From positions 1,240,001 through 1,304,000 of the forward strand of contig NZ_CP011807.3 in NCBI RefSeq assembly GCF_001029105.3: DNA of 64,000 nt, read 5' to 3'. Of the stretch, positions 237-9,029 are shown piece by piece. The notes below the pieces were generated by a model. It had not been told where the DNA came from and did no database searches. It saw nothing but the letters and a program-made list of their open reading frames with translations. Position 1 is the first letter of the stretch. Each line of letters begins with the position of its first letter. The position numbers and the translations under genes were made by a program. The DNA comes from Pandoraea faecigallinarum (GTDB taxonomy: Bacteria; Pseudomonadota; Gammaproteobacteria; Burkholderiales; Burkholderiaceae).

Positions 237-506
237 TCAATCTAAGGCATCCCCGACGTGATGCCTGAATATTTTTCCGTGACGACGGGTCAAACTTGCA
301 CTACCGGCATGCTTGTCAATGTCGACGGTAACAAAGCGAGTAGACGTCCATCGTTTCGACGCCTCTTGCACGAGTGCGCCATCACCCGCCCCGAGATCAA
401 TCGCTAGGGATGGACTAAAGTTAGGCATCGCCTCGAGAAGTAGCGAGGCGATAGTGGTATCGGTGTAGTAACGGCCTAGGGGGGCGGATGTCTTGGCGAA
501 GCGCAT
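237..506 (-). pseudogene. N-terminal fragment of an N6-adenine DNA methyltransferase
   Basis: The 89-residue frame starts at an ATG at 506 and contains the SAM-binding motif I (AIDLGAGDGALVQEA) followed by an acidic strand end (VTVDID), as at the start of N-6 DNA methylases of restriction-modification or phage-defence systems. An upstream GRYYTD segment fits the N-terminal helix region of the same family. The frame stops at a TGA just after GDALD, before any NPPY-type catalytic motif, while family members are several hundred residues long. It is therefore read as a truncated or nonsense-broken remnant. The frame is open further upstream to a TTG at 551. No restriction endonuclease or specificity subunit is visible beside it. 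Confidence 0.6.
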
Positions 507-551
507 ATTTTCGTGCAATGACGAGCAATTCTTTGCGAGCGAGTGTAGCAA

Positions 552-757: not shown

Positions 758-1438
758 TTACCACTCGTTTTCCAATGCGAGTCTTGCGCAACGAAAGAAG
801 TCTTCGGAAGGGCATTGAAATGCGAGGGTCTCTTGCTCCCATTGTGCATTACCGCGACGCGAGATGAAATGAAGGTGTGCACGGGCGCGCTCCCAATCAA
901 AAGCCATTGCCTTAAGAGTGATTGTTTGTCCTTCTATGATCACATCCTGGTTGATTTCGATGTCGCTGGGTTGGCGATTTATCCAGCGTTGCGTGGAAGC
1001 AGCAAACAGGCTTGTCACATCAATAAATGTTTCAACTTCTGATCGGTGGGGAGCAAGGTATTCATGCTCGACTTGATTGCGAAGTTGATTTAGCCGGTTA
1101 AGTATCCTTGGAGCGGTAACACCTACTTTGGATAGGAATTCGACCATGCGCGGAAATGAGCGTCGTTCCCCAAAGCTTGCAAAGCCGAAGCCAAGGCAGA
1201 CATCTTCCATGCGCAGGTGAAGGGCTCGTTTCGCATTGGTTAGGGCGTTCACTAGGTGACGTTCCGACTCGCCTTCCGACAAGTCACTTTCTGCGAATTT
1301 CAGATACTGCGCCGCTGAGATTGGCTCATCTCGAGTCCTGATCCAGGACCATGTGTAGATCCAATCCCCGTCCGGCTTGAATGTTCGAAGATCGAACTTC
1401 GTTACCAAATCTTTTATCGCTAGCACGAGCCGCCCCAT
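758..1438 (-). CDS. HEPN-like protein with RNxxxH motif (outside the att-bounded element)
   Basis: A 226-residue protein from the ATG at 1438; the frame is open to a TTG at 1522 but the internal ATG gives a more natural start (MGRLVLAIKDL). The middle is helical, with a segment NALTNAKRALHLRMED followed about 45 residues later by LNQLRNQVEHEYLAP. The RNQVEH string matches the R-(N/D/H)-x3-H form of the HEPN RNase/nucleotide-binding motif. HEPN proteins act as toxins or RNases in toxin-antitoxin, abortive infection and CRISPR systems, but many are uncharacterised. No partner antitoxin such as an MNT nucleotidyltransferase is adjacent. The neighbour is a broken DNA methyltransferase, so the locus resembles a decayed defence island. 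Function is inferred from the motif only. Confidence 0.6.
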   Translation of the reverse strand: MGRLVLAIKDLVTKFDLRTFKPDGDWIYTWSWIRTRDEPISAAQYLKFAESDLSEGESERHLVNALTNAKRALHLRMEDVCLGFGFASFGERRSFPRMVEFLSKVGVTAPRILNRLNQLRNQVEHEYLAPHRSEVETFIDVTSLFAASTQRWINRQPSDIEINQDVIIEGQTITLKAMAFDWERARAHLHFISRRGNAQWEQETLAFQCPSEDFFRCARLALENEW

Positions 1439-1713
1439 CTTGCTGATGTCGAAATATTCTAACGTGTTCCCGGGGGTGCGAGCAGCATGAGCAGGCGGGG
1501 CGACCGATCTAACCCGAGGCAACAGAGTGCGTGATTCGCCGCTACGAGTGTTGTCGGATGTGAAGGTGACCCAACTCGAACTTCAGTCCGCCGAGGCGGG
1601 TGAGCAGGTTCAATCGCCAACGCGCTGATCGCGTGGAGGATCTATGGGGGGAGAAGCGATCATTACGCCAAAATTACGCCAAACCACCGGGGAAGTCTTG
1701 CCAGATAAGGCTG

Positions 1714-1732
1714 TTGTGGTGCCCAGGGCCGG
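1714..1732. repeat. att site, distal copy (direct repeat of tRNA-Leu 3' end)
   Basis: The 19 bases TTGTGGTGCCCAGGGCCGG are identical to 8758-8776, which cover the CCA end, acceptor strand and part of the T arm of the tRNA-Leu gene. Beyond the repeat the match decays (GGTAACG versus GGAATCG). Together with the integrase at the tRNA end this defines the borders of a 7.0-kb element integrated in the tRNA gene. Confidence 0.85.
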
Positions 1733-1785
1733 TAACGCTACGCAACTCTCAGCCCGCAAGGCTATATCTGGCCTGAAGGGGATTC

Positions 1786-1822
1786 GTGGGGTAGGTTGAA
1801 TTACCCCGCGATGTTACCCCAC
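1786..1822. repeat. TTACCCC-type repeats, candidate integrase arm sites
   Basis: GTGGGGTA at 1786-1793 is an inverted copy of TACCCCAC at 1815-1822, with a further TTACCCCGC at 1801-1809. The same TTACCCCAC occurs at 8673-8681 between the integrase start and the other att copy. Short repeats at both ends inside the att copies are typical of arm-type sites for tyrosine integrases. This is inference from position and sequence. Confidence 0.45.
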
Positions 1823-1857
1823 CCTAGGCCTTGCGTCGAGGCAGTCCCCGCCGTGAA

Positions 1858-2757
1858 TCAGATGAATCCGGCTTTAGCTGCTGCCTTCACGTTCATCCAC
1901 TTCCCGTCGATGCGCACAAGATTTCCGTTGACCTCGTAGCCATTTGCTTGGAGTGCTCCGAGGTTCGGGGCAACACCACGCATAAACCCAGCGATGAGTG
2001 GCTTCCACGCGCTCATATCTCGCCCGTATGCCTGTTGCTGGATGGCAGTTGTGAGCATTGCCTTCTGTCCGCTCTGCTTGGCCCAATCGTAGAAAGCGGG
2101 AAGTTCATCAGCGTTGAGGCCATTCTTCGTGAGGAAGTTATCGGTCTGCGCCTGATACGCGTCCATCACGAATTGAACACGCTCGCCTGCTTGCGACGGG
2201 TCCATGCCAGACCGCTGTGCCACGCCTAAGACGACATCCTCAATTGCCATATCGCCGGTAGCGGCTGCGATGGCATGGGCTAGACCAACATCCAGTGTCG
2301 ATTGGTCGAACGGCTCCACTGCGGCATCTACCGCTGAGGCCACTTCTTCGGGCATCGTGGCGGCGTCCGGGCTTGTCTCTTCGGTGCCCTCGTCGGTGTC
2401 ACCCGCGCTATCGCTAGATGCCAGTGCGAAGCCATCCGCAGTCTCTCGCAGTACACCCGCCTTAATGAAGTCGCCAACCTTGGCATTCATGCCTGAGATT
2501 TCAACTACGCTATCAGAGGTGATGTTGTTGGTGGGGAAACCCATTGAGTTTCGGGCTGTGCTGCGCCAGTCATCAGCGGAATACGGAGAGAGGTCACTAG
2601 CGGAAACCTCGGCATGCTGACTAAAGTTAGATTTGGCCTCATTGCCGTTCAACGTAATCGAAGTCGTTCCGCCAGTAACGCGGGTTGTGGGGCCGGTGGT
2701 CGGGGCTGCTGTTTCGTCGGTAGGGACGTAGGTGGAGTAGCTGTTGTAGTCGCTCAT
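1858..2757 (-). CDS. Phage-like protein of unknown function, 299 residues, related to the 102-residue neighbour
   Basis: The first 50 or so residues are Thr/Ser/Gly-rich and low complexity. Around residues 85-115 is a module VVEISGMNAKVGDFIKAGVL, then an acidic Thr/Glu/Asp-rich linker, a helical Ala/Gln-rich middle (about 150-255), and a short C-terminal module GYEVNGNLVRIDGKWMNV ending in AAKAGFI. Both end modules recur in the 102-residue protein encoded just upstream (2786-3094), which lacks the middle part. It is the last gene of the minus-strand run before the left att site. The layout suggests a structural, scaffold or decoration protein of a phage or satellite, but I do not recognise the family. 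Confidence 0.7.
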   Translation of the reverse strand: MSDYNSYSTYVPTDETAAPTTGPTTRVTGGTTSITLNGNEAKSNFSQHAEVSASDLSPYSADDWRSTARNSMGFPTNNITSDSVVEISGMNAKVGDFIKAGVLRETADGFALASSDSAGDTDEGTEETSPDAATMPEEVASAVDAAVEPFDQSTLDVGLAHAIAAATGDMAIEDVVLGVAQRSGMDPSQAGERVQFVMDAYQAQTDNFLTKNGLNADELPAFYDWAKQSGQKAMLTTAIQQQAYGRDMSAWKPLIAGFMRGVAPNLGALQANGYEVNGNLVRIDGKWMNVKAAAKAGFI

Positions 2758-2785
2758 GGTCGTAGTCTTGGTTTGAAGTGGTGGG

Positions 2786-3094
2786 TTAGATGAGGCCGTG
2801 TTTCCGTGCCTCGGTGATGCGGTAATAGCCCCCGTCGATCATCACGCGGTCTTGGTCGAAGGTTTCCCCTCGCAACACGTTATAGCCCCGCCGGGTCAAT
2901 CCCTCGGGGCTGTATGGGTCTGGGGCAGGTGCTGAGGAGAAGTCTGGGGGAGCCGCCGGGATGGGCCGATGGGGAAATTTGCCGGTGGTCAGAAAGGCAC
3001 CTTGAGGGTCACGCTGGAGTAATCCAAGGCGGATCAACGCGGACGCTGACGCTGTGATGCCGGAGACGGTGAATACTTCGTCGTCACTTTGCAT
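2786..3094 (-). CDS. Small phage-like protein, short paralogue of the 299-residue protein
   Basis: 102 residues. The N-terminal half (FTVSGITASASALIRLGLL) aligns by eye with VEISGMNAKVGDFIKAGVL of the 299-residue neighbour, and the C-terminal end (GYNVLRGETFDQDRVMIDGG, then YYRITEARKHGLI) aligns with its GYEV...VRIDGKWMNVKAAAKAGFI end. A Pro-rich linker joins the two modules in place of the neighbour's acidic and helical middle. The start overlaps the stop of the 74-residue gene upstream by 11 bases, so they are probably co-transcribed and translationally coupled. Function unknown. Confidence 0.65.
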   Translation of the reverse strand: MQSDDEVFTVSGITASASALIRLGLLQRDPQGAFLTTGKFPHRPIPAAPPDFSSAPAPDPYSPEGLTRRGYNVLRGETFDQDRVMIDGGYYRITEARKHGLI

Positions 3095-3308
3095 CGACCA
3101 ATCTCCGTAGCCTCGCCTCTAGCTCCCATCCAATGAGTAACGAGATCAGAATTTCCATGTGCTCATCACGGGTGGGGTTATCAAGGAGGAGGTCCAATCG
3201 AGCATGGATTGCTTGGCGGCGCTCATTCTCAGCGGCAATGTTGGTCACGCGCTTCGACGGTTTGCGCTTCTTCAACGCTGATGCGGAGGCTTCTGGTTCG
3301 ATAGTCAT
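3084..3308 (-). CDS. Small basic hypothetical protein, 74 residues
   Basis: The N-terminus is Lys/Arg-rich (LKKRKPSKRV) and the rest is predicted helical (AENERRQAIHARLDLLLDN, then MEILISLLIGWELEARLRRL). It sits between a 55-residue frame ending 10 bases upstream and the 102-residue gene it overlaps, so it belongs to the compact minus-strand run of the element. I do not recognise it; a small DNA-binding or morphogenesis accessory protein would fit its charge and place. Confidence 0.5.
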   Translation of the reverse strand: MTIEPEASASALKKRKPSKRVTNIAAENERRQAIHARLDLLLDNPTRDEHMEILISLLIGWELEARLRRLVDAK

Positions 3309-3318
3309 GAGAATGGTT

Positions 3319-3486
3319 TCAAGTGCCGGAGGCGTAGATTTGTGCGAGGTGTTTTGCCTTCTTCATTCGCCTGAGAAGGTCCTTTCGGAAGTAATGCCGG
3401 TAGACGCGAGGAACAAAGCGCTCATACCGGTCTCGCATCGTTGTCAGCAGTTCGAGTGCAACGGTGGGGGATTCAGAGGGGCTCAT
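3319..3486 (-). CDS. Small hypothetical protein, 55 residues
   Basis: An ATG at 3486 opens a 55-codon frame (MSPSESPTVALELL...) ending TGA at 3319, ten bases before the next gene. It contains a basic aromatic segment YERFVPRVYRHYFRKDLLRR and a KKAKHLAQIYAS tail. It fills what would otherwise be a gap in a tightly packed operon. No clear Shine-Dalgarno is seen, so the call rests on spacing and gene-like composition. Function unknown. Confidence 0.4.
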   Translation of the reverse strand: MSPSESPTVALELLTTMRDRYERFVPRVYRHYFRKDLLRRMKKAKHLAQIYASGT

Positions 3487-3531
3487 GGGAATATGGGATG
3501 AGTGGTATAGGTCGGTGTCGGGCGGCGGCTG

Positions 3532-3759
3532 TTAGGTGCCTACCGGTGCCCTCAGAATCGATTTTTGAGGGCGTAGACTGCTGACCCAGAATCCATCCTT
3601 ATTAATTGCCATGCCCTTCGCTTTCATCTCGGGGACAGTCATACATCGACGGTCTTTCCCGAATACGCCTATTCGGTGCTTGTCGAAAGCGTGAGAGGAA
3701 TTGAAATGCTGGTGACATCCGGGGCATTGGTTGCGGTCTCCGGTTAGTCGTTTGCTCAT
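3532..3759 (-). CDS. FDXHR-type putative zinc-binding protein
   Basis: 75 residues from the ATG at 3759 (a TTG at 3777 would add six). It has CPGCHQHF, then AFDKHRIG and RRCMTVPEM, followed by a GMAINKDGFW tail. This CxxC...FDxHR...C...M pattern is that of the small FDXHR family of putative zinc-binding proteins often found in phages and mobile elements. The Cys and His residues could hold one zinc ion. It lies in the minus-strand phage-like run; its role is unknown, with DNA binding the usual guess. Confidence 0.7.
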   Translation of the reverse strand: MSKRLTGDRNQCPGCHQHFNSSHAFDKHRIGVFGKDRRCMTVPEMKAKGMAINKDGFWVSSLRPQKSILRAPVGT

Positions 3760-3777
3760 GATGTTGTTTGCAGACAA

Positions 3778-4064
3778 AAAGAAGCCCGCTCAATGGCGGG
3801 CGTGGATAAGCATCTAAAGGGGGGAACTGAGAGGGAGACGTGTAGCGGCGCTCAGCTTCGCTTCGCTTGGAGACCGAGTCTCTCTGAGGGGGAGACACCC
3901 TTCACGGTCAACCTCCACATTGAATCAGGATATGTGGTCTCCCACGGCGAAGCCGTATCAGAGATGGCACGGAGGTAAAGAGTCCTTGTTGTGGTCTCTT
4001 CCTGTTCTTGTTACTGTTCCTGTTGCCTTAGCGGGGCGCTAACCGGTGGGTTTCTCCCAAGCCC
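3778..4064. other. Intergenic region with short repeats inside the element
   Basis: No gene is supported. The region has several GAGAC/GTCTC boxes (about 3834-3945) and, at 4001-4027, a run of CTGTT/CTTGTT steps (CCTGTTCTTG, TTACTGTTCC, TGTTGCC). Lying next to a DUF1376-like gene, such steps could be iterons or operator sites, but they are too degenerate to be sure. Confidence 0.3.
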
Positions 4065-4406
4065 TTAAAAATCAGCCTCTGCGGCCTCGGGTTTCAACGT
4101 CGAAGGTCTGCCGCCTTTCCTCCCGTTGACTCTGTTCGTTTCAATCTTGGCGATTGCCTTCGCTCGGTCTTGATCGAGATGGGGTGCTTTACGCTTGGGA
4201 AAATACGTTTTGAGGACCTTAGCGAGAACTGCTGGGTCCCCGCCTCGGGCAACGTAGGTTGTCTCAAGCGCCGACTTGGGCGGAAGCTCGCCCGTTCGCC
4301 AATATAGGTCTTCGAGAAACGTCAGCGTGCCAATCTCGGCTATGCTGAGGTGAAGCGTTCGCTCAATCCGCTCCCCGATGTCGAGTTGTCGGAACGGCAG
4401 TTTCAT
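4065..4406 (-). CDS. DUF1376-like protein (phage replication-associated family)
   Basis: 113 residues. The segment LHLSIAEIGTLTFLEDLYW followed by GELPP and then a KVLKTYFP segment matches the DUF1376 pattern (HLSxxEHGAYxxLLxxYYxxxxPLP...VLxxFF), which forms the N-terminal part of many phage replication-initiation-like proteins. A basic tail NGRKGGRPS follows. It is shorter than two-domain replication proteins, so it may act alone or be a reduced form. It starts 7 bases after the stop of the preceding 61-residue gene, indicating one transcript. Family assignment is by eye. Confidence 0.55.
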   Translation of the reverse strand: MKLPFRQLDIGERIERTLHLSIAEIGTLTFLEDLYWRTGELPPKSALETTYVARGGDPAVLAKVLKTYFPKRKAPHLDQDRAKAIAKIETNRVNGRKGGRPSTLKPEAAEADF

Positions 4407-4413
4407 GAGTCGC

Positions 4414-4599
4414 TTACGCCCGCTCGAAGGTGACGATTACCTCATCGTCTTGTGCGCAGGGGGTGGTGAGGAAGACCCCGCTAGCCAATGAAGTTAGTGG
4501 AGCATCTTCGCCATTCACGGTGGCGGTGGGAGTACCTACAAACTCAGGGAGTCCGAAGAACTGTTGTCCTGAAAATGCCTTGTCAGTAATGGTTGTCAT
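4414..4599 (-). CDS. Small hypothetical protein, 61 residues
   Basis: A 61-residue acidic protein (MTTITDKAFSGQQFFGLPEF start, VIVTFERA end) whose stop is 7 bases before the DUF1376-like start. Alternating hydrophobic residues suggest a small beta-rich fold. It is part of the minus-strand run of the element. I do not recognise it. Confidence 0.45.
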   Translation of the reverse strand: MTTITDKAFSGQQFFGLPEFVGTPTATVNGEDAPLTSLASGVFLTTPCAQDDEVIVTFERA

Positions 4600-4622
4600 G
4601 GTCAGTGGTTGTGTTGATTGGT

Positions 4623-4925
4623 TTAGGTGAGGCGATGGAGTTCGGCGTTCTCGCGATCAGCGGCATCACCACTCAGGCCCCGGACATACTTGTCATAGAC
4701 CTGAATGGCGCGCCGCATAATCAGACTGCGAGACGGGATGAGGTTGCCCTTGATGACACATGTAGGATGCTCTTGAAGAGCCTGAATGGTGTCCGCTAGC
4801 GGTCGCTCAAGGCGAACTCGGAGGACATCACTAGTCTCGGGATCAAGCCGCCGTTGATACTGGATGCGTTGTTCTTTTTTCATTTCGAGGAAGAGGAATT
4901 GCGCAGAAACAGAGCCGACCCTCAC
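4623..4925 (-). CDS. Small DNA-binding-like protein, first gene of the minus-strand run
   Basis: 100 residues from a GTG at 4925, which has a GAGAG box six bases before it; an ATG at 4883 would give 86 residues (MKKEQRIQYQRRL...). A strand-like LRVRLERPL and a later PSRSLIMRRAIQVYDKYV helix pair resemble a ribbon-helix-helix repressor, though the spacing between them is long. As the first gene of the run it could be the element's regulator. No second regulatory gene is visible. Assignment is tentative. Confidence 0.45.
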   Translation of the reverse strand: MRVGSVSAQFLFLEMKKEQRIQYQRRLDPETSDVLRVRLERPLADTIQALQEHPTCVIKGNLIPSRSLIMRRAIQVYDKYVRGLSGDAADRENAELHRLT

Positions 4926-5303
4926 GGGTGACTCTCGGGGATGAACTGCCAGGGGAACTGAGGGGGCACTGCTGGTGACGCGAACCGATAGCCAGAAACA
5001 AGAATGGCTATGGTGACGTGTGACGAATGGACTCTATCGAGGGCAATGGGACCGGTGCGCCGTAGTCACACACCGGCCCATGCACACACAAGGCTATGAG
5101 CAATGCCTTGCCTTGTTGCCTAGGGTGTCGCCCGCCTCCCTCTACAGAGAGCGCGACACAGCAGCAAGGCGGAAGGAGACGGCCACGCAATTCCGAGGCG
5201 TGGCTTCTTCCTACTATCGGACATAATTCGGTCGGACGGCAGGATCCTCCTAGTATGCTACCTATCGAAGGGTCTCCTATTGTGTGCCCTAATTCGATCT
5301 GCC
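4926..5303. other. Intergenic region between recombinase and phage-like run
   Basis: 378 bp without a supported gene. On the minus strand it carries three purine-rich boxes (ATAGGAG near 5273-5280, CTAGGAGG near 5247-5254, GTAGGAAG near 5210-5217) and only tiny frames. It must contain the promoter of the minus-strand run, but no clear -35/-10 pair stands out. Confidence 0.35.
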
Positions 5304-5885
5304 CTATGCCGCTTCGCGGCCACGGACCCGCATGATGGTCTGCCGGGTAGTCCCGAAGTCCCGCGCTAGCTGCGCCACTGGGACACCCTCGGCCAACTTC
5401 CGGCGCACCTCCTGCTGCTGCTCAGGGGAAAGCGCTGAAGGCCTGCCGAATGCCTTGCCATCGGCCTTGGCTCTGCGGATACCTGCATTGGTCCGCTCAA
5501 TCAACAGGTCCCGCTCGAACTCTGCTACTGCTGCAAGGACCTGCATCGTCATCCGTCCTGCTGCGCTAGTCAGGTCAACACCACCGAGAGCGAGGCAGTG
5601 AACCCGGACACCTTCAGCGGCGAGGGCTTCCACCGTAGCACGGACATCCATCGCATTACGTCCAAGGCGGTCTAACTTCGTCACCACCAGAACATCACCG
5701 TATTCAAGCTTCTCACTTAGAGCCCTGAACTTCGGGCGATCCATTGCCGTGACGGACCCGGAGATATGTTCCGTGATGGTGCGTCGAGGCGTGAGCGCGA
5801 AGCCTGCGGCCTCAATCTCTCGGACTTGATTGTCTGTGGTCTGGTCGGTAGTGGACACGCGGCAGTAAGCGAAGACACGGGACAT
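5304..5885 (-). CDS. Serine recombinase, resolvase/invertase family
   Basis: 193 residues from the ATG at 5885 ([12 protein letters not shown]), preceded by AGAGATC; the longer upstream frame has no such signal. The catalytic domain shows YCRVSTTDQ with the nucleophilic serine at residue 10, the arginine-bearing MDRPKF region and [13 protein letters not shown]. An interdomain helix ([14 protein letters not shown]) and a C-terminal helix-turn-helix ([20 protein letters not shown]) complete the standard Tn3 resolvase/Pin invertase layout. Its promoter carries three TGTACGAA boxes, so it probably binds its own promoter. No transposase is present, so it may resolve multimers of the element, invert a segment or act as a regulator. 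Confidence 0.9.
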
Positions 5886-5909
5886 GATGATCTCTATGTA
5901 CCAAAGGGA

Positions 5910-5960
5910 TGTACGAATTATAGGTGGTGTACGAAATAATGCAAACCTTAGTTTCGTACA
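5910..5960. promoter_or_regulatory. Operator/res-like boxes upstream of the serine recombinase
   Basis: TGTACGAA occurs at 5910-5917 and 5928-5935, and TTTCGTACA at 5952-5960 forms an inverted pair with TGTACGAAA at 5928-5936 (15-bp spacer). Two boxes overlap the recombinase promoter and the third lies just upstream of its -35, as expected for an autoregulated res or operator site. Confidence 0.6.
5917..5944 (-). promoter_or_regulatory. Sigma-70 promoter of the serine recombinase gene
   Basis: Read on the minus strand: TTGCAT (-35, bases 5939-5944), 16-bp spacer, TATAAT (-10, bases 5917-5922), about 30 bases before the ATG at 5885. This is the best consensus promoter in the accessory region. 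Confidence 0.7.
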
Positions 5961-6043
5961 TATGCCGCAAGGGGAGTACGCAAGTGATCCTCTTCGGACA
6001 GACCCGGCTTGGGTAGAATGCTCGAAACTTGGGGGATATAGGC

Positions 6044-6577
6044 GTGACAAATACAACGTGGTCGGTACTGCCTGAAGATTATTTAAAGTGCTTGGGTGAA
6101 ATGATCTCCGTTCATTCGTTTGTGGAGATGCTCGTGTACACACTCTTTATGGATTGCTGCGGTCTCGATGAGGACTCTGCAAAGGTACTCATTGACAAAG
6201 GCAACCTAAAGCCTGCGCAGATGAAGGAAATCATATCGGCATTGCTAGAGCTTCGGCCATCCGACGATCCAGACGCGGACCGGGCTCTAAAGGCTGCGCT
6301 AGGTGATTACAAGCTCTTAACCGAAAAGCGCAATCAATTCGCCCACTGGCAATGGGGCATATCAAATCAAGGGCCTTCGGTAACCAATTTTCTGAAGCAG
6401 CGTCCCGGCGCTCAACCGACGATGCAACAGGTCTCTACCGAAGACTTGAAGTTTGTCATTGACGGACTTCGTTCGGTGGCGAATCGAATCATCGTGAATA
6501 CGCCATCGGCACGCGCGGCAATGCCTAAGGAAATGAGGCAGATATTTGGGGGTATGGGGGGAGGTTCGCCTAGGTAA
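6044..6577 (+). CDS. HEPN-like protein A (RNxxxH motif), first gene of a two-gene cargo operon
   Basis: 177 residues from a GTG at 6044, chosen because GGGGGA lies seven bases upstream; a TTG at 6029 is the alternative. An N-terminal helical segment ([19 protein letters not shown]) is followed around residues 85-100 by [15 protein letters not shown], in which RNQFAH fits the HEPN R-N-x3-H motif. The C-terminus ends in Gly-rich [16 protein letters not shown] box at 6014-6019 may be the -10 of its promoter. It is followed 46 bases later by a second HEPN-like gene on the same strand, opposite in direction to the phage-like genes, so the pair looks like cargo. RNase activity is possible but unproven. 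Confidence 0.6.
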
Positions 6578-6623
6578 GGTCGAAGGGGAAGGTCTCACAT
6601 TTTTTTTTGTCAAAATTTTGGAC

Positions 6624-7226
6624 ATGCAAAAAATGGAATCGGACGAGTCTACAAGGTCACTAATGAACTCCGCATTTGTTCGGACCATGCTGAATGACGC
6701 CGACCATCATGAGCAATGTGTGGCTGCGTTCAATGGCGAGTACCTTGCCTATTTGGGAAAGGACCGGGAGTTGATCGGCCAGATTTTGCTATCGCATCTG
6801 ATAATTGAGAGATTTTTAGATCGGTACTTGGAGATTGCAAACCCTAATCTCAGCGTAAAACAAAGGGAGCGCATGGGGTTCGCAAAGAAGTGGGAGATAA
6901 AACGGTTGCCGCCTGGCAGCCTTCTTGAGTTGCATGGTGCTGGGGTGGTTGCCCTTAACGCGCTCCGAAATAAGGTTGCGCACGATCTGAGCGCCCATGT
7001 TGAGCCGTCTGATGTTGAACCAATTAAATCGTGCTTTGGCCCGTGGCATTTTGCCTCAGGAAGGCCAGAGCCACTCAGCGACATTCATTGGCTCGTCGCC
7101 TTCACACAGCATATTGCCTTTGTCCTTGATTCCCTCACGAAAGGTATTGTTCGCTACGGTGGTGCTGATGGATTGGATGGTTACGAAGCTTGGCTAATCG
7201 AGGCGGTAAGAACACCTGCCCGCTGA
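6624..7226 (+). CDS. HEPN-like protein B (RNxxxH motif), second gene of the cargo operon
   Basis: 200 residues from the ATG at 6624 (MQKMESDESTRSL); the frame is open further upstream, overlapping the previous gene, without a better start. A helix ILLSHLIIERFLDRYLE and, about 60 residues on, VVALNALRNKVAHDL give the two-helix HEPN signature with RNKVAH as the R-N-x3-H motif. This arrangement is common in standalone HEPN proteins of defence islands and prophages. The gene faces the integrase gene tail to tail, 64 bases apart. Possibly acts with protein A; no antitoxin or nucleotidyltransferase is seen nearby. Confidence 0.65.
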   Translation: MQKMESDESTRSLMNSAFVRTMLNDADHHEQCVAAFNGEYLAYLGKDRELIGQILLSHLIIERFLDRYLEIANPNLSVKQRERMGFAKKWEIKRLPPGSLLELHGAGVVALNALRNKVAHDLSAHVEPSDVEPIKSCFGPWHFASGRPEPLSDIHWLVAFTQHIAFVLDSLTKGIVRYGGADGLDGYEAWLIEAVRTPAR

Positions 7227-7235
7227 CGAAAAGTG

Positions 7236-7290
7236 CTTAGGATGGAAAACCACAAATCCCATTGCCCTCCAATCCTTTGTCTTAGGATGG
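7236..7290. repeat. 10-bp direct repeat between convergent genes
   Basis: CTTAGGATGG occurs at 7236-7245 and 7281-7290, the second copy directly abutting the integrase stop codon. It may be a remnant of a small duplication; no hairpin or T-run terminator is obvious between the two genes. Confidence 0.4.
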
Positions 7291-8652
7291 TCATATTGCC
7301 CTCACTTTGGCTAGCCACTCAGCCATCACTTTTAGGCTGTAGCCCTTCCCGTACTTAGATGCGATGTCTCTCGTAGCCCATCCCCCGATGGCCTGCCGTA
7401 TGTCCTCGGGACACTGCACATCCCGGAGACGATCCGCCATCGTGTGGCGTAGCTCATGGGCTGTGTGATTCATGGCCTTACCGTCTACCTCCAGACTCCG
7501 AATCCACTTTGCAATGGTGTTGCTTGCATGCGTGGCCTTGGTCCCATCCGCCGAGGTGTAGCGGGGGAATGCGAATATCTGGCCCCTACGTGCGGCCTGC
7601 TTGACCCTCTGGGCGGCCCATAGCGCCATGCCCGCTAGGGGCACTGAACGGGCACTAGATGCGTTCTTGAGGGAGCGCCAAGGGTGAGGCTGAATAACGA
7701 CGTGCGGGGTCTCAGCGTCCAACACGAGGTCATCCAAAGCTAGCCCAGTGATTTCCGCTAGACGTGCTCCGGTGTCACCCAGAATGGCAGTCAACCACCG
7801 GACATCATCATCCTTGGTCTTGCACGCATCGAAGAGCGTCCGCAGTTCTGCCCCTGTAAACGGCTCCCGCTTCTTCGCATCGCCACCATTCTCCGGGATC
7901 GGGATGCGGGTGAAGGGGTTAGGCTTGTCCGATTCTTTCTCGCGTAACCAAGTGCCGATGATTGCCCGGATCGTATTCATGTAGCGATTGACGGTGCCGG
8001 TCTTCACCCCACGGGCTATCTCAGCCGCGACATACTTATGCGCATCACTTCGTGACAGGTCTGCAATTGGCTTGTCTCCGACGACATCCGTCAGTGTCTT
8101 GAACACGAGCCGCGTATGTCCCTCAAAACGCTCGTCGGAGCGCTTCGGGTGGACCTGAAGATACAACTCAAGAGCATCCGTGAGGACAGGCTTCACGGTA
8201 CCGGCAATGATTTGCGCTGCTTTGATTTCGACCGGGCTTAGGTACTCGCTGCCATCGGCATCCCGATAGGTCGCTTCGTCCCCGTCTGCGTAGCGCTCCC
8301 GCTTCTCATCGAGATGGTCGCGAAACAGTTCAACGGCATCAGCATCGTCTGGAGTCGGATCGGGAGACAGGCCCCACTTACGGAGCAACTCTATCGCTTG
8401 CCCTTGGATACTCTTCGGGGTCGCTTCGGGGTGGCCGCGCATGAGCGCCCATTCCGCTTCGAGTTCGCGATTAATCTGTTCGATCTTCCGTTTGGCGATC
8501 AGGACATCGCTAGTCCCTAGGCTGGTCTTCACCAGCTTGGCGGAGTAGCGGCCCTGTAAGTCTTTCGGGATTGCTCGCTGGTAGTAAATGACACCACCAC
8601 GGAGGAAGGCATTTTTCAGAGACACGCGTAGGACACCGAGAGTCAACTTCAT
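7291..8652 (-). CDS. Tyrosine site-specific recombinase (integrase)
   Basis: 453 residues from the ATG at 8652; the frame stays open into the tRNA but that extension would read through the att site and is rejected. The N-terminal region (GGVIYYQRAIPKDL, SLGTSDVLIAKRK) is of the DUF6538 type seen in phage integrases. The catalytic domain shows GARLAEITGL (first Arg), HELRHTMADRL (His-x-x-Arg), GGWATRDI (Trp/His position) and SKYGKGYS with the nucleophilic Tyr. It would integrate and excise the 7-kb element at the tRNA-Leu gene whose 3' end lies about 110 bases upstream. No excisionase is recognised. It appears intact, so excision may still be possible. Confidence 0.93.
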   Translation of the reverse strand: MKLTLGVLRVSLKNAFLRGGVIYYQRAIPKDLQGRYSAKLVKTSLGTSDVLIAKRKIEQINRELEAEWALMRGHPEATPKSIQGQAIELLRKWGLSPDPTPDDADAVELFRDHLDEKRERYADGDEATYRDADGSEYLSPVEIKAAQIIAGTVKPVLTDALELYLQVHPKRSDERFEGHTRLVFKTLTDVVGDKPIADLSRSDAHKYVAAEIARGVKTGTVNRYMNTIRAIIGTWLREKESDKPNPFTRIPIPENGGDAKKREPFTGAELRTLFDACKTKDDDVRWLTAILGDTGARLAEITGLALDDLVLDAETPHVVIQPHPWRSLKNASSARSVPLAGMALWAAQRVKQAARRGQIFAFPRYTSADGTKATHASNTIAKWIRSLEVDGKAMNHTAHELRHTMADRLRDVQCPEDIRQAIGGWATRDIASKYGKGYSLKVMAEWLAKVRAI

Positions 8653-8672
8653 GAGGAGTATATCCCATAGGA

Positions 8673-8681
8673 TTACCCCAC
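8673..8681. repeat. TTACCCCAC, candidate integrase arm site at the tRNA end
   Basis: This nonamer matches the cluster at 1801-1822 near the other end of the element. It lies between the integrase start codon and the att copy, where an arm-type binding site or int operator would be expected. Confidence 0.4.
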
Positions 8682-8738
8682 AAACCTCATCGGTGCTGGC
8701 GTTAAGTTGCTGGAAACCCGCATGGATACTGGGATTTC

Positions 8739-8757
8739 GTGGTGCCCCTGGCCGGGA
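8739..8757. repeat. Imperfect second att-like copy abutting the tRNA att site
   Basis: GTGGTGCCCCTGGCCGGGA differs from the att sequence GTGGTGCCCAGGGCCGGAA at only a few positions and lies immediately inside the tRNA-proximal att copy. It may be a relic of an earlier integration or the original element-borne att half-site. Confidence 0.5.
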
Positions 8758-8776
8758 TTGTGGTGCCCAGGGCCGG
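8758..8776. repeat. att site, tRNA-proximal copy
   Basis: Identical 19 bases to 1714-1732, covering the CCA end, 3' acceptor strand and part of the T arm of tRNA-Leu. The tRNA stays intact because the element end restores its 3' part, the usual outcome for tRNA-targeting integrases. Confidence 0.85.
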
Positions 8777-8845
8777 AATCGAACCGGCACGCCTTGCGGC
8801 GGGGGATTTTGAGTCCCCTGCGTCTACCAATTTCACCACCTGGGC
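8761..8845 (-). tRNA. tRNA-Leu (anticodon CAA)
   Basis: Read on the minus strand, GCCCAGG pairs with CCTGGGC before an encoded ACCA end. The D-arm region TGGTGAAATTGGTAGACGC, anticodon stem GGGGA/TCCCC with loop CTCAAAA (anticodon CAA), a long variable arm (GCCGCAAGGCG) and T loop GGTTCGAATCC are all present. The 85-nt length and long variable arm fit a leucine tRNA. Its 3' end is the integration target of the adjacent element. Confidence 0.97.
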
Positions 8846-9029
8846 AGGTGTGCGTGCACCGAACGGTGCCGCAGCGTGAGTCGTTCGAAGAACCTAGGGT
8901 TCACCGGACGAAGGCGAGATTATGACCGATATTTCCGTCGGCCACAAGCCCGCCGCGTTCGCCTGACATGGCCGCCGCTATCGGGCCCGCCGCGCCCCGG
9001 TTCGCCACGCCAATGTCAGGCATCGGGCG

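Follow-up and report, generated by a model that had tools for sequence, protein, structure and literature searches.

Two HEPN-type genes in a tRNA-Leu integrative element of Pandoraea faecigallinarum: candidate stacked anti-phage RNases

Introduction

HEPN proteins typically homodimerise, according to excerpts of PMC12165695, and for Thermus the available part of PMC11437467 proposes HEPN nucleases as effectors of prophage defence. Among the matches listed by our literature search for HEPN pairs, most concern Cas13 and CRISPR, one Las1-Grc3 and one Csm6. In the stretch of the Pandoraea faecigallinarum genome analysed here (64,000 nucleotides, positions 1,240,001 to 1,304,000 of contig NZ_CP011807.3; hereafter the window, to which all positions given without another locus refer), two adjacent genes, A and B, lie in a small integrative element at a tRNA-Leu gene, and each encodes a small protein with the R-N-x3-H motif of HEPN RNases. 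A preliminary description of this DNA regarded them as one paired HEPN system. The locus thus raises the question of whether A and B form a single two-protein unit or are two independent proteins that share an element, and of what they might do there. The explanation that we favour, and to which we give about an even chance, makes A and B a stack of two anti-phage HEPN RNases, similar in kind to HepS and Tha, that act independently of each other.

Results

The two different, helical plus-strand proteins with RNQFAH and RNKVAH motifs that had been described, of 177 and 200 residues, are indeed encoded: both open reading frames (ORFs) are present, and among the aligned relatives of either protein the motif residues R, N and H do not vary. 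The motif occupies residues 101-106 of A (numbered here, as for all residues of A, in the 182-residue form that starts at TTG 6029) and 115-120 of B, and it ends a predicted core helix in each (81-105 in A, 105-121 in B). R101, N102 and H106 are conserved in 11 of 11 relatives of A and in 18 of 18 rows of a chosen alignment; R115, N116 and H120 are conserved in 11 of 11 relatives of B and in all 15 aligned rows. The 18 rows take up 4 (L014, L015, L023, L027) of the 14 loci, other than the window's own, from the phylum search reported below. Omitted were L016-L018, L020-L022, L024 and L025, in which RN-x3-H is present, the motif-negative L026 (in-frame stops) and L019 (open frame), L059 as a near copy of L058, and 15 further copies of the L040 phage protein. 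L006, from the A search, has stops in frame and was not used, and the B alignment omits L080, a near copy of L079. Among all matches of the wide searches outside the window's own loci, the motif was found in 12/14 (L026 and L019 being the two misses) and 6/6 loci for A and in 9/9 and 4/4 for B, counts that are not independent, as the profiles include the motif. Since 7 of 185 background ORFs with 100 or more residues also have RNx3H, a single motif, or a neighbour recognised by motif only, counts little.

Assignment to a fold is firm for B. Its profile matched four PDB sequences at E ≤ 10, all of them HEPN RNases, with HepS at the top (E 1.6e-5, 28 bits, positions 94-130; a distant match over 37 positions only) and Csm6 second. 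For the structure model of B, the first ten VIA rows comprised HepS, YggD/MtlR, Csm6 and HepT, HepS and YggD/MtlR being the best, and the root-mean-square deviation between the model and HepS was 6.6. Some relatives of B also match the CARF-HEPN and Csm6 models of PADLOC weakly (best E 0.0023). The model of A gave a weak fold match to HEPN, with HepT among the VIA rows. When the profiles of A and B are aligned with each other (probability 86-90%), the two motifs coincide; the two folds are distantly related. The earlier label "HEPN-like" therefore holds firmly for the product of gene B, while the product of gene A, whose fold match is weak, is very probably a HEPN protein.

Known families gave few names. 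A matched phrog_26374 (E 7.9e-9) and B phrog_5483 (E 5.7e-6), both families of unknown function. Neither protein was matched by Pfam (above cut-off) or NCBIfam, or by any PADLOC-DB 2.0.0 model at E ≤ 1, and Foldseek found no significant match in the PDB for either model; against viral models it returned one significant match, unnamed, for A (E 1.1e-4). Single-protein scans found no close relative of A or B in viral contigs and none of A in genome contigs. In plasmids the same scans gave a single match, a weak one to B, and nothing for A; in phages A matched three records, all of the same phage protein, and B matched nothing.

Recurrence of the two families was evaluated in genome sets of the family, the phylum and the class. 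Of 200 genomes of the family, 5 had A (three of these matches being weak) and 2 had B, with both present in the genome of the window and in that of a sister species, G147. Profile searches detected A in 15 and B in 8 of 398 genomes of the phylum, and A in 7 and B in 5 of 339 genomes of the class (neighbours checked by motif only in the latter), each time with both families in the window's own genome only; these wide searches start with a loose first look, by which distant members may be missed. When 440 ORFs from the collected loci were scanned with the profiles, one relative of A was found near a relative of B, in the Pseudomonas locus L081, where the former (E 2.3e-15) lies 2.2 kb upstream of the latter with three co-directional ORFs between them. 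Tandem HEPN genes of other composition were seen in L087, where an AbiU2 HEPN gene (E 1.7e-15) is followed 232 bp on by a relative of B, and in L138 (1423-2823), where a relative of A is followed after 12 bp by a 284-residue frame that carries RNALAH and matches HEPN_RiboL-PSP below cut-off (E 0.051). The A and B families thus do not recur as this neighbour pair.

The sister species offers a second view of the locus, as the element is also present in G147, next to the same tRNA. There, an insertion sequence of 1.34 kb, which we take to be of the IS256 type and which is accompanied by an 8-bp target duplication, breaks gene B, and the frame of A is intact. If A is expressed in G147, A without an intact B is tolerated, which disfavours B as an antitoxin for A; A restraining B would fit. 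Only 3 positions differ between the two copies in 6000-8750, compared with 22 in 5750-6000. The aligned stretches of the remaining element are 96.7-99.8% identical (3806-4412 is unaligned), and two nearby chromosomal stretches 86-89%. Based on these differences, we read the block of A, B and integrase as one exchanged recently, with its edge just upstream of gene A. Together, the search for co-occurring homologues and the broken B of G147 speak against the initial claim of one paired system; L081, with both families 2.2 kb apart, and the HEPN-HEPN neighbours of L087 and L138 leave that claim weakened, not killed.

The surroundings of the relatives point to phages and to defence. All four arrangements looked at around phage relatives of A place the gene antisense to tail genes, three of them with tail genes on both sides. 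In the Pseudomonas phages vB_PaeS-D14C and PP9W2 the gene lies antisense between two minor tail genes, and the same A-family phage protein is found in 16 viral contigs. The A-family gene lies, likewise antisense, between the genes for the distal tail protein and the tape measure in L058, among genes for minor tail and tail assembly proteins interspersed with small ORFs in L077, and with a tail assembly gene on one side and a gene of unknown function on the other in L060. In L005 (1-3389, minus strand) a class I pAgo gene (PADLOC E 1.8e-200), a relative of A (4-bp overlap) and a PDC-S68-like gene stand in a row, and the HEPN-like protein may be a partner of the pAgo there. Relatives of B are mostly lone genes; in 3 of 13 loci, an AriA/AriB-like, AbiEi/AbiEii or GajB-like neighbour lies no more than about 1 kb away. 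Ten neighbour proteins, picked by eye and without a control, comprised seven with a clear match to a named system, one with a weak match and two with none. These pAgo/PDC-S68, AriA/AriB-like, AbiEi/AbiEii and GajB-like neighbours support an anti-phage reading, and the defence role proposed in the preliminary description is, as judged from sequence, likely.

Two further gene arrangements were observed around relatives of A. In L014 (1453-2476) and L023 (1297-2335) a Cas2-like gene (PF09827; E 1.4e-5 and 0.0024, respectively, the latter below cut-off) lies directly upstream of an A-superfamily gene on the same strand. L137 (3-1836) and L081 (2081-4322) share the order of a relative of A, a gene of unknown function that seems to encode a membrane segment, and a gene with an RNC-x2-H motif (RNCITH and RNCVEH, respectively).

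Among characterised proteins, HepS of the Salmonella Gifsy-1 prophage (PDB 9oij, 9oik) is the best match of B in both sequence and structure and is likewise a small single-domain HEPN protein; its structure was solved with the lambda J tail tip, according to the title of entry 9oik. HepS is located in a lambda-like prophage, whereas B is carried by a small tRNA-Leu element and has another HEPN gene next to it. A Gifsy-1 gene, STM14_3211, is predicted to encode a HEPN domain in the available part of PMC9879122, and our literature search, with most subscription papers outside its scope, found no paper on HepS. Minor tail proteins activate Tha, a prophage HEPN RNase (R265NSIMH270), according to excerpts of PMC11087260, and its H270A form no longer protects. 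Like the A and B families, Tha-1 and Tha-2 of Staphylococcus prophages are phage-borne and, by the same excerpts, combine R-N-x3-H with an antisense gene context. They differ in that Tha has 301 residues, its C-terminal HEPN domain being preceded by a separate long N-terminal part that A and B lack, and in that it has an antisense inhibitor gene, ith; its likeness to A and B is one of description, not of sequence alignment.

Other systems share the fold of A or B and differ in context. Csm6 has the HEPN fold of B, but A and B have no CARF domain and the element no CRISPR context. HEPN-MNT systems (HepT/MntA) share the HEPN fold, HepT being among the VIA rows of both models, yet a Pfam scan of 8 of the 9 other element proteins found neither an MNT nor a known antitoxin family, in keeping with the reported lack of a nucleotidyltransferase or antitoxin partner. 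YggD/MtlR resembles B in fold but gave no Pfam or PDB sequence match. In Cas13, two unlike HEPN units are encoded together, according to excerpts of PMC12165695, as they are in A and B; the latter are separate genes and come with no CRISPR RNA (crRNA) family. In 1600-9000 the tRNA alone reaches the gathering score of an RNA family, and an AbiF-like RNA partner was rejected on this ground.

The element measures 7,044 bp between 19-bp direct repeats (Table 1), and A and B lie between its serine recombinase and integrase genes, which bears out their description as cargo of a tRNA-Leu element. As also described, they run against the other genes: A and B are on the plus strand, and all nine other ORFs taken as element genes are on the minus strand. 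The rest of the element encodes small proteins, among these a phage zinc-binding protein (PF24071) and, below the Pfam cut-off, a DUF1376/primosomal-like protein, and for this we call the element satellite-like. GC content is 50% for the A-B pair, 57% for the remaining element and 64% for 16-64 kb of the window.

Table 1. Positions of genes A and B and of the other features of the element in the window.
Feature	Position	Strand	Description
Gene A	6044..6577	+	HEPN-type protein, 177 aa, RNQFAH then WQWG
Gene B	6624..7226	+	HEPN protein, 200 aa, RNKVAH, HepS relative
Tyrosine integrase	7291..8652	-	453 aa from internal ATG (start chosen by inspection of L028; listed ORF starts 8790); Phage_integrase E 2.3e-11, phrog_1 E 9.2e-36
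Serine recombinase	5304..5885	-	Divergent from gene A; Resolvase E 4.4e-36; start ATG by inspection (listed ORF starts 6143)
TGTACGAA-type repeats	5895-5962		Direct and inverted, before serine recombinase gene
Attachment (att) core, left end	1714..1732		19-bp direct repeat
Attachment (att) core, tRNA end	8758..8776		19-bp direct repeat
tRNA-Leu (caa)	8761..8845	-	Integration target
Other element ORFs	1858-2757, 2786-3094, 3084-3308, 3532-3777, 4065-4406, 4414-4599, 4623-4925	-	

Gene A starts with GTG 6044, and a GGGGGA box (6031-6036) ends 7 nt before it; the in-frame TTG 6029 is an alternative start. Gene B starts with ATG 6624, leaving a gap of 46 bp between the co-directional genes. A longer frame for B from TTG 6546 is disfavoured by one base in the T run at 6600, the sole difference from G147 within 6000-7250. 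No clear promoter was found for the pair. The 158 nt upstream of gene A are predicted to fold strongly (z -3.2; z -2.6 for the G147 copy), with one base pair altered on either side between the two copies, which is too little to claim an RNA; inverted TGTACGAA sites explain the folding more simply than an RNA element, which was rejected. The repeats before the serine recombinase gene, an array that G147 retains with substitutions, are perhaps binding sites of this recombinase.

The tRNA locus is present in 32 of 32 genomes of the genus, and the element in two, those of the window and of G147. In the other 30, homology at the locus begins at 8756-8761, the 3' end of the tRNA, and six (G031, G082, G101, G133, G168, G588) have a second copy of the tRNA end on the same contig, 1.6 to 27 kb off, as if the site took up different elements; the stretches at tRNA-Leu were looked at in three genomes. 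At the same tRNA-Leu in G133 (L127, 4577-18172), an island looks like an integrated filamentous phage, with a Zot-like protein. Left of the att core, the window encodes at 758-1522 (minus strand) a 254-residue protein with RNQVEH and no Pfam or PDB match, which matches the B-family profile weakly (E 0.015) and is perhaps a third HEPN-like protein, in a neighbouring island. The short piece at 237-551 (minus strand), probably a remnant, resembles type II DNA methyltransferases over their first part (6-93 of 413 residues; PADLOC MTase_II, E 9.4e-13).

Discussion

We propose that the satellite-like integrative element carries A and B as stacked cargo directed against phages. Each would be a small HEPN endoribonuclease, most likely a homodimer to whose cleft each subunit contributes its R and H, and would remain latent until a component of a phage is present. 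Once activated, it would cut cellular and phage RNA, so that infection is stopped and the cell sacrificed, an abortive outcome. A tail component would be the likeliest trigger for both, since HepS, the nearest characterised relative of B, binds the lambda J tail tip, and the phage relatives of A lie antisense in tail clusters. That A and B may be RNases of the HepS/Tha kind is supported by their invariant R, N and H, by the HEPN-only PDB matches of B, by the alignment of the two profiles, and by the same R-N-x3-H in Tha. Separate action is suggested by families that share no genome but the window's own among the 398 and 339 searched, and by the persistence of A beside a broken B in G147.

These last two points also tell against a heterotypic unit, in which the unlike subunits A and B would form one composite RNase site that assembles or opens on a phage tail protein, one subunit sensing and both cutting, by analogy with the internal HEPN pair of Cas13 but split over two genes. 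Such a unit would fit two co-directional genes 46 bp apart, in a block kept nearly unchanged in two species, whose products have distantly related folds, and other tandem HEPN genes exist in L087 and L138. The partners in those tandems are not A/B orthologues, however, and relatives of A and B are mostly lone genes, so that we consider a heterotypic unit unlikely. The broken B of G147 can also be read the other way, as the loss of a toxin: two short co-directional genes might constitute a toxin-antitoxin-like pair in which one of the HEPN proteins keeps the other in check, with A, encoded upstream, as the likeliest inhibitor of B. We hold this to be quite unlikely, as R, N and H are kept in both families, which a pure antitoxin need not do, as relatives of either family mostly occur without the other, and as known antitoxin families in Pfam and NCBIfam were not matched.

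The remaining alternatives dispense with RNase-based defence. B could be a regulator of the MtlR/YggD kind, and A and B HEPN-fold proteins without RNase activity; this is improbable, given that the profile of B finds HepS and Csm6 and no MtlR/YggD sequence at E ≤ 10, that B has no Pfam match, and that R-N-x3-H is invariant. Equally slim is the prospect of neutral or decaying cargo without present function. The presence of the element in 2 of 32 genus genomes, the broken B in one of them and the absence of a clear promoter would agree with it, but both frames are intact in the window copy, and two species differ at three positions only in 6000-8750.

If A and B are separately acting RNases as proposed, their interest lies in two unannotated families, near phrog_26374 and phrog_5483, that become linked to HEPN proteins of phages and islands, and in tail proteins as a testable guess at the trigger. 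Should A and B act together after all, they would be a heterotypic HEPN pair built from separate genes, and tandem HEPN genes with varying partners (A-B, L138, L087 and, more loosely, L081) would then form a combinatorial class that corresponds, in separate genes, to the Cas13 pair.
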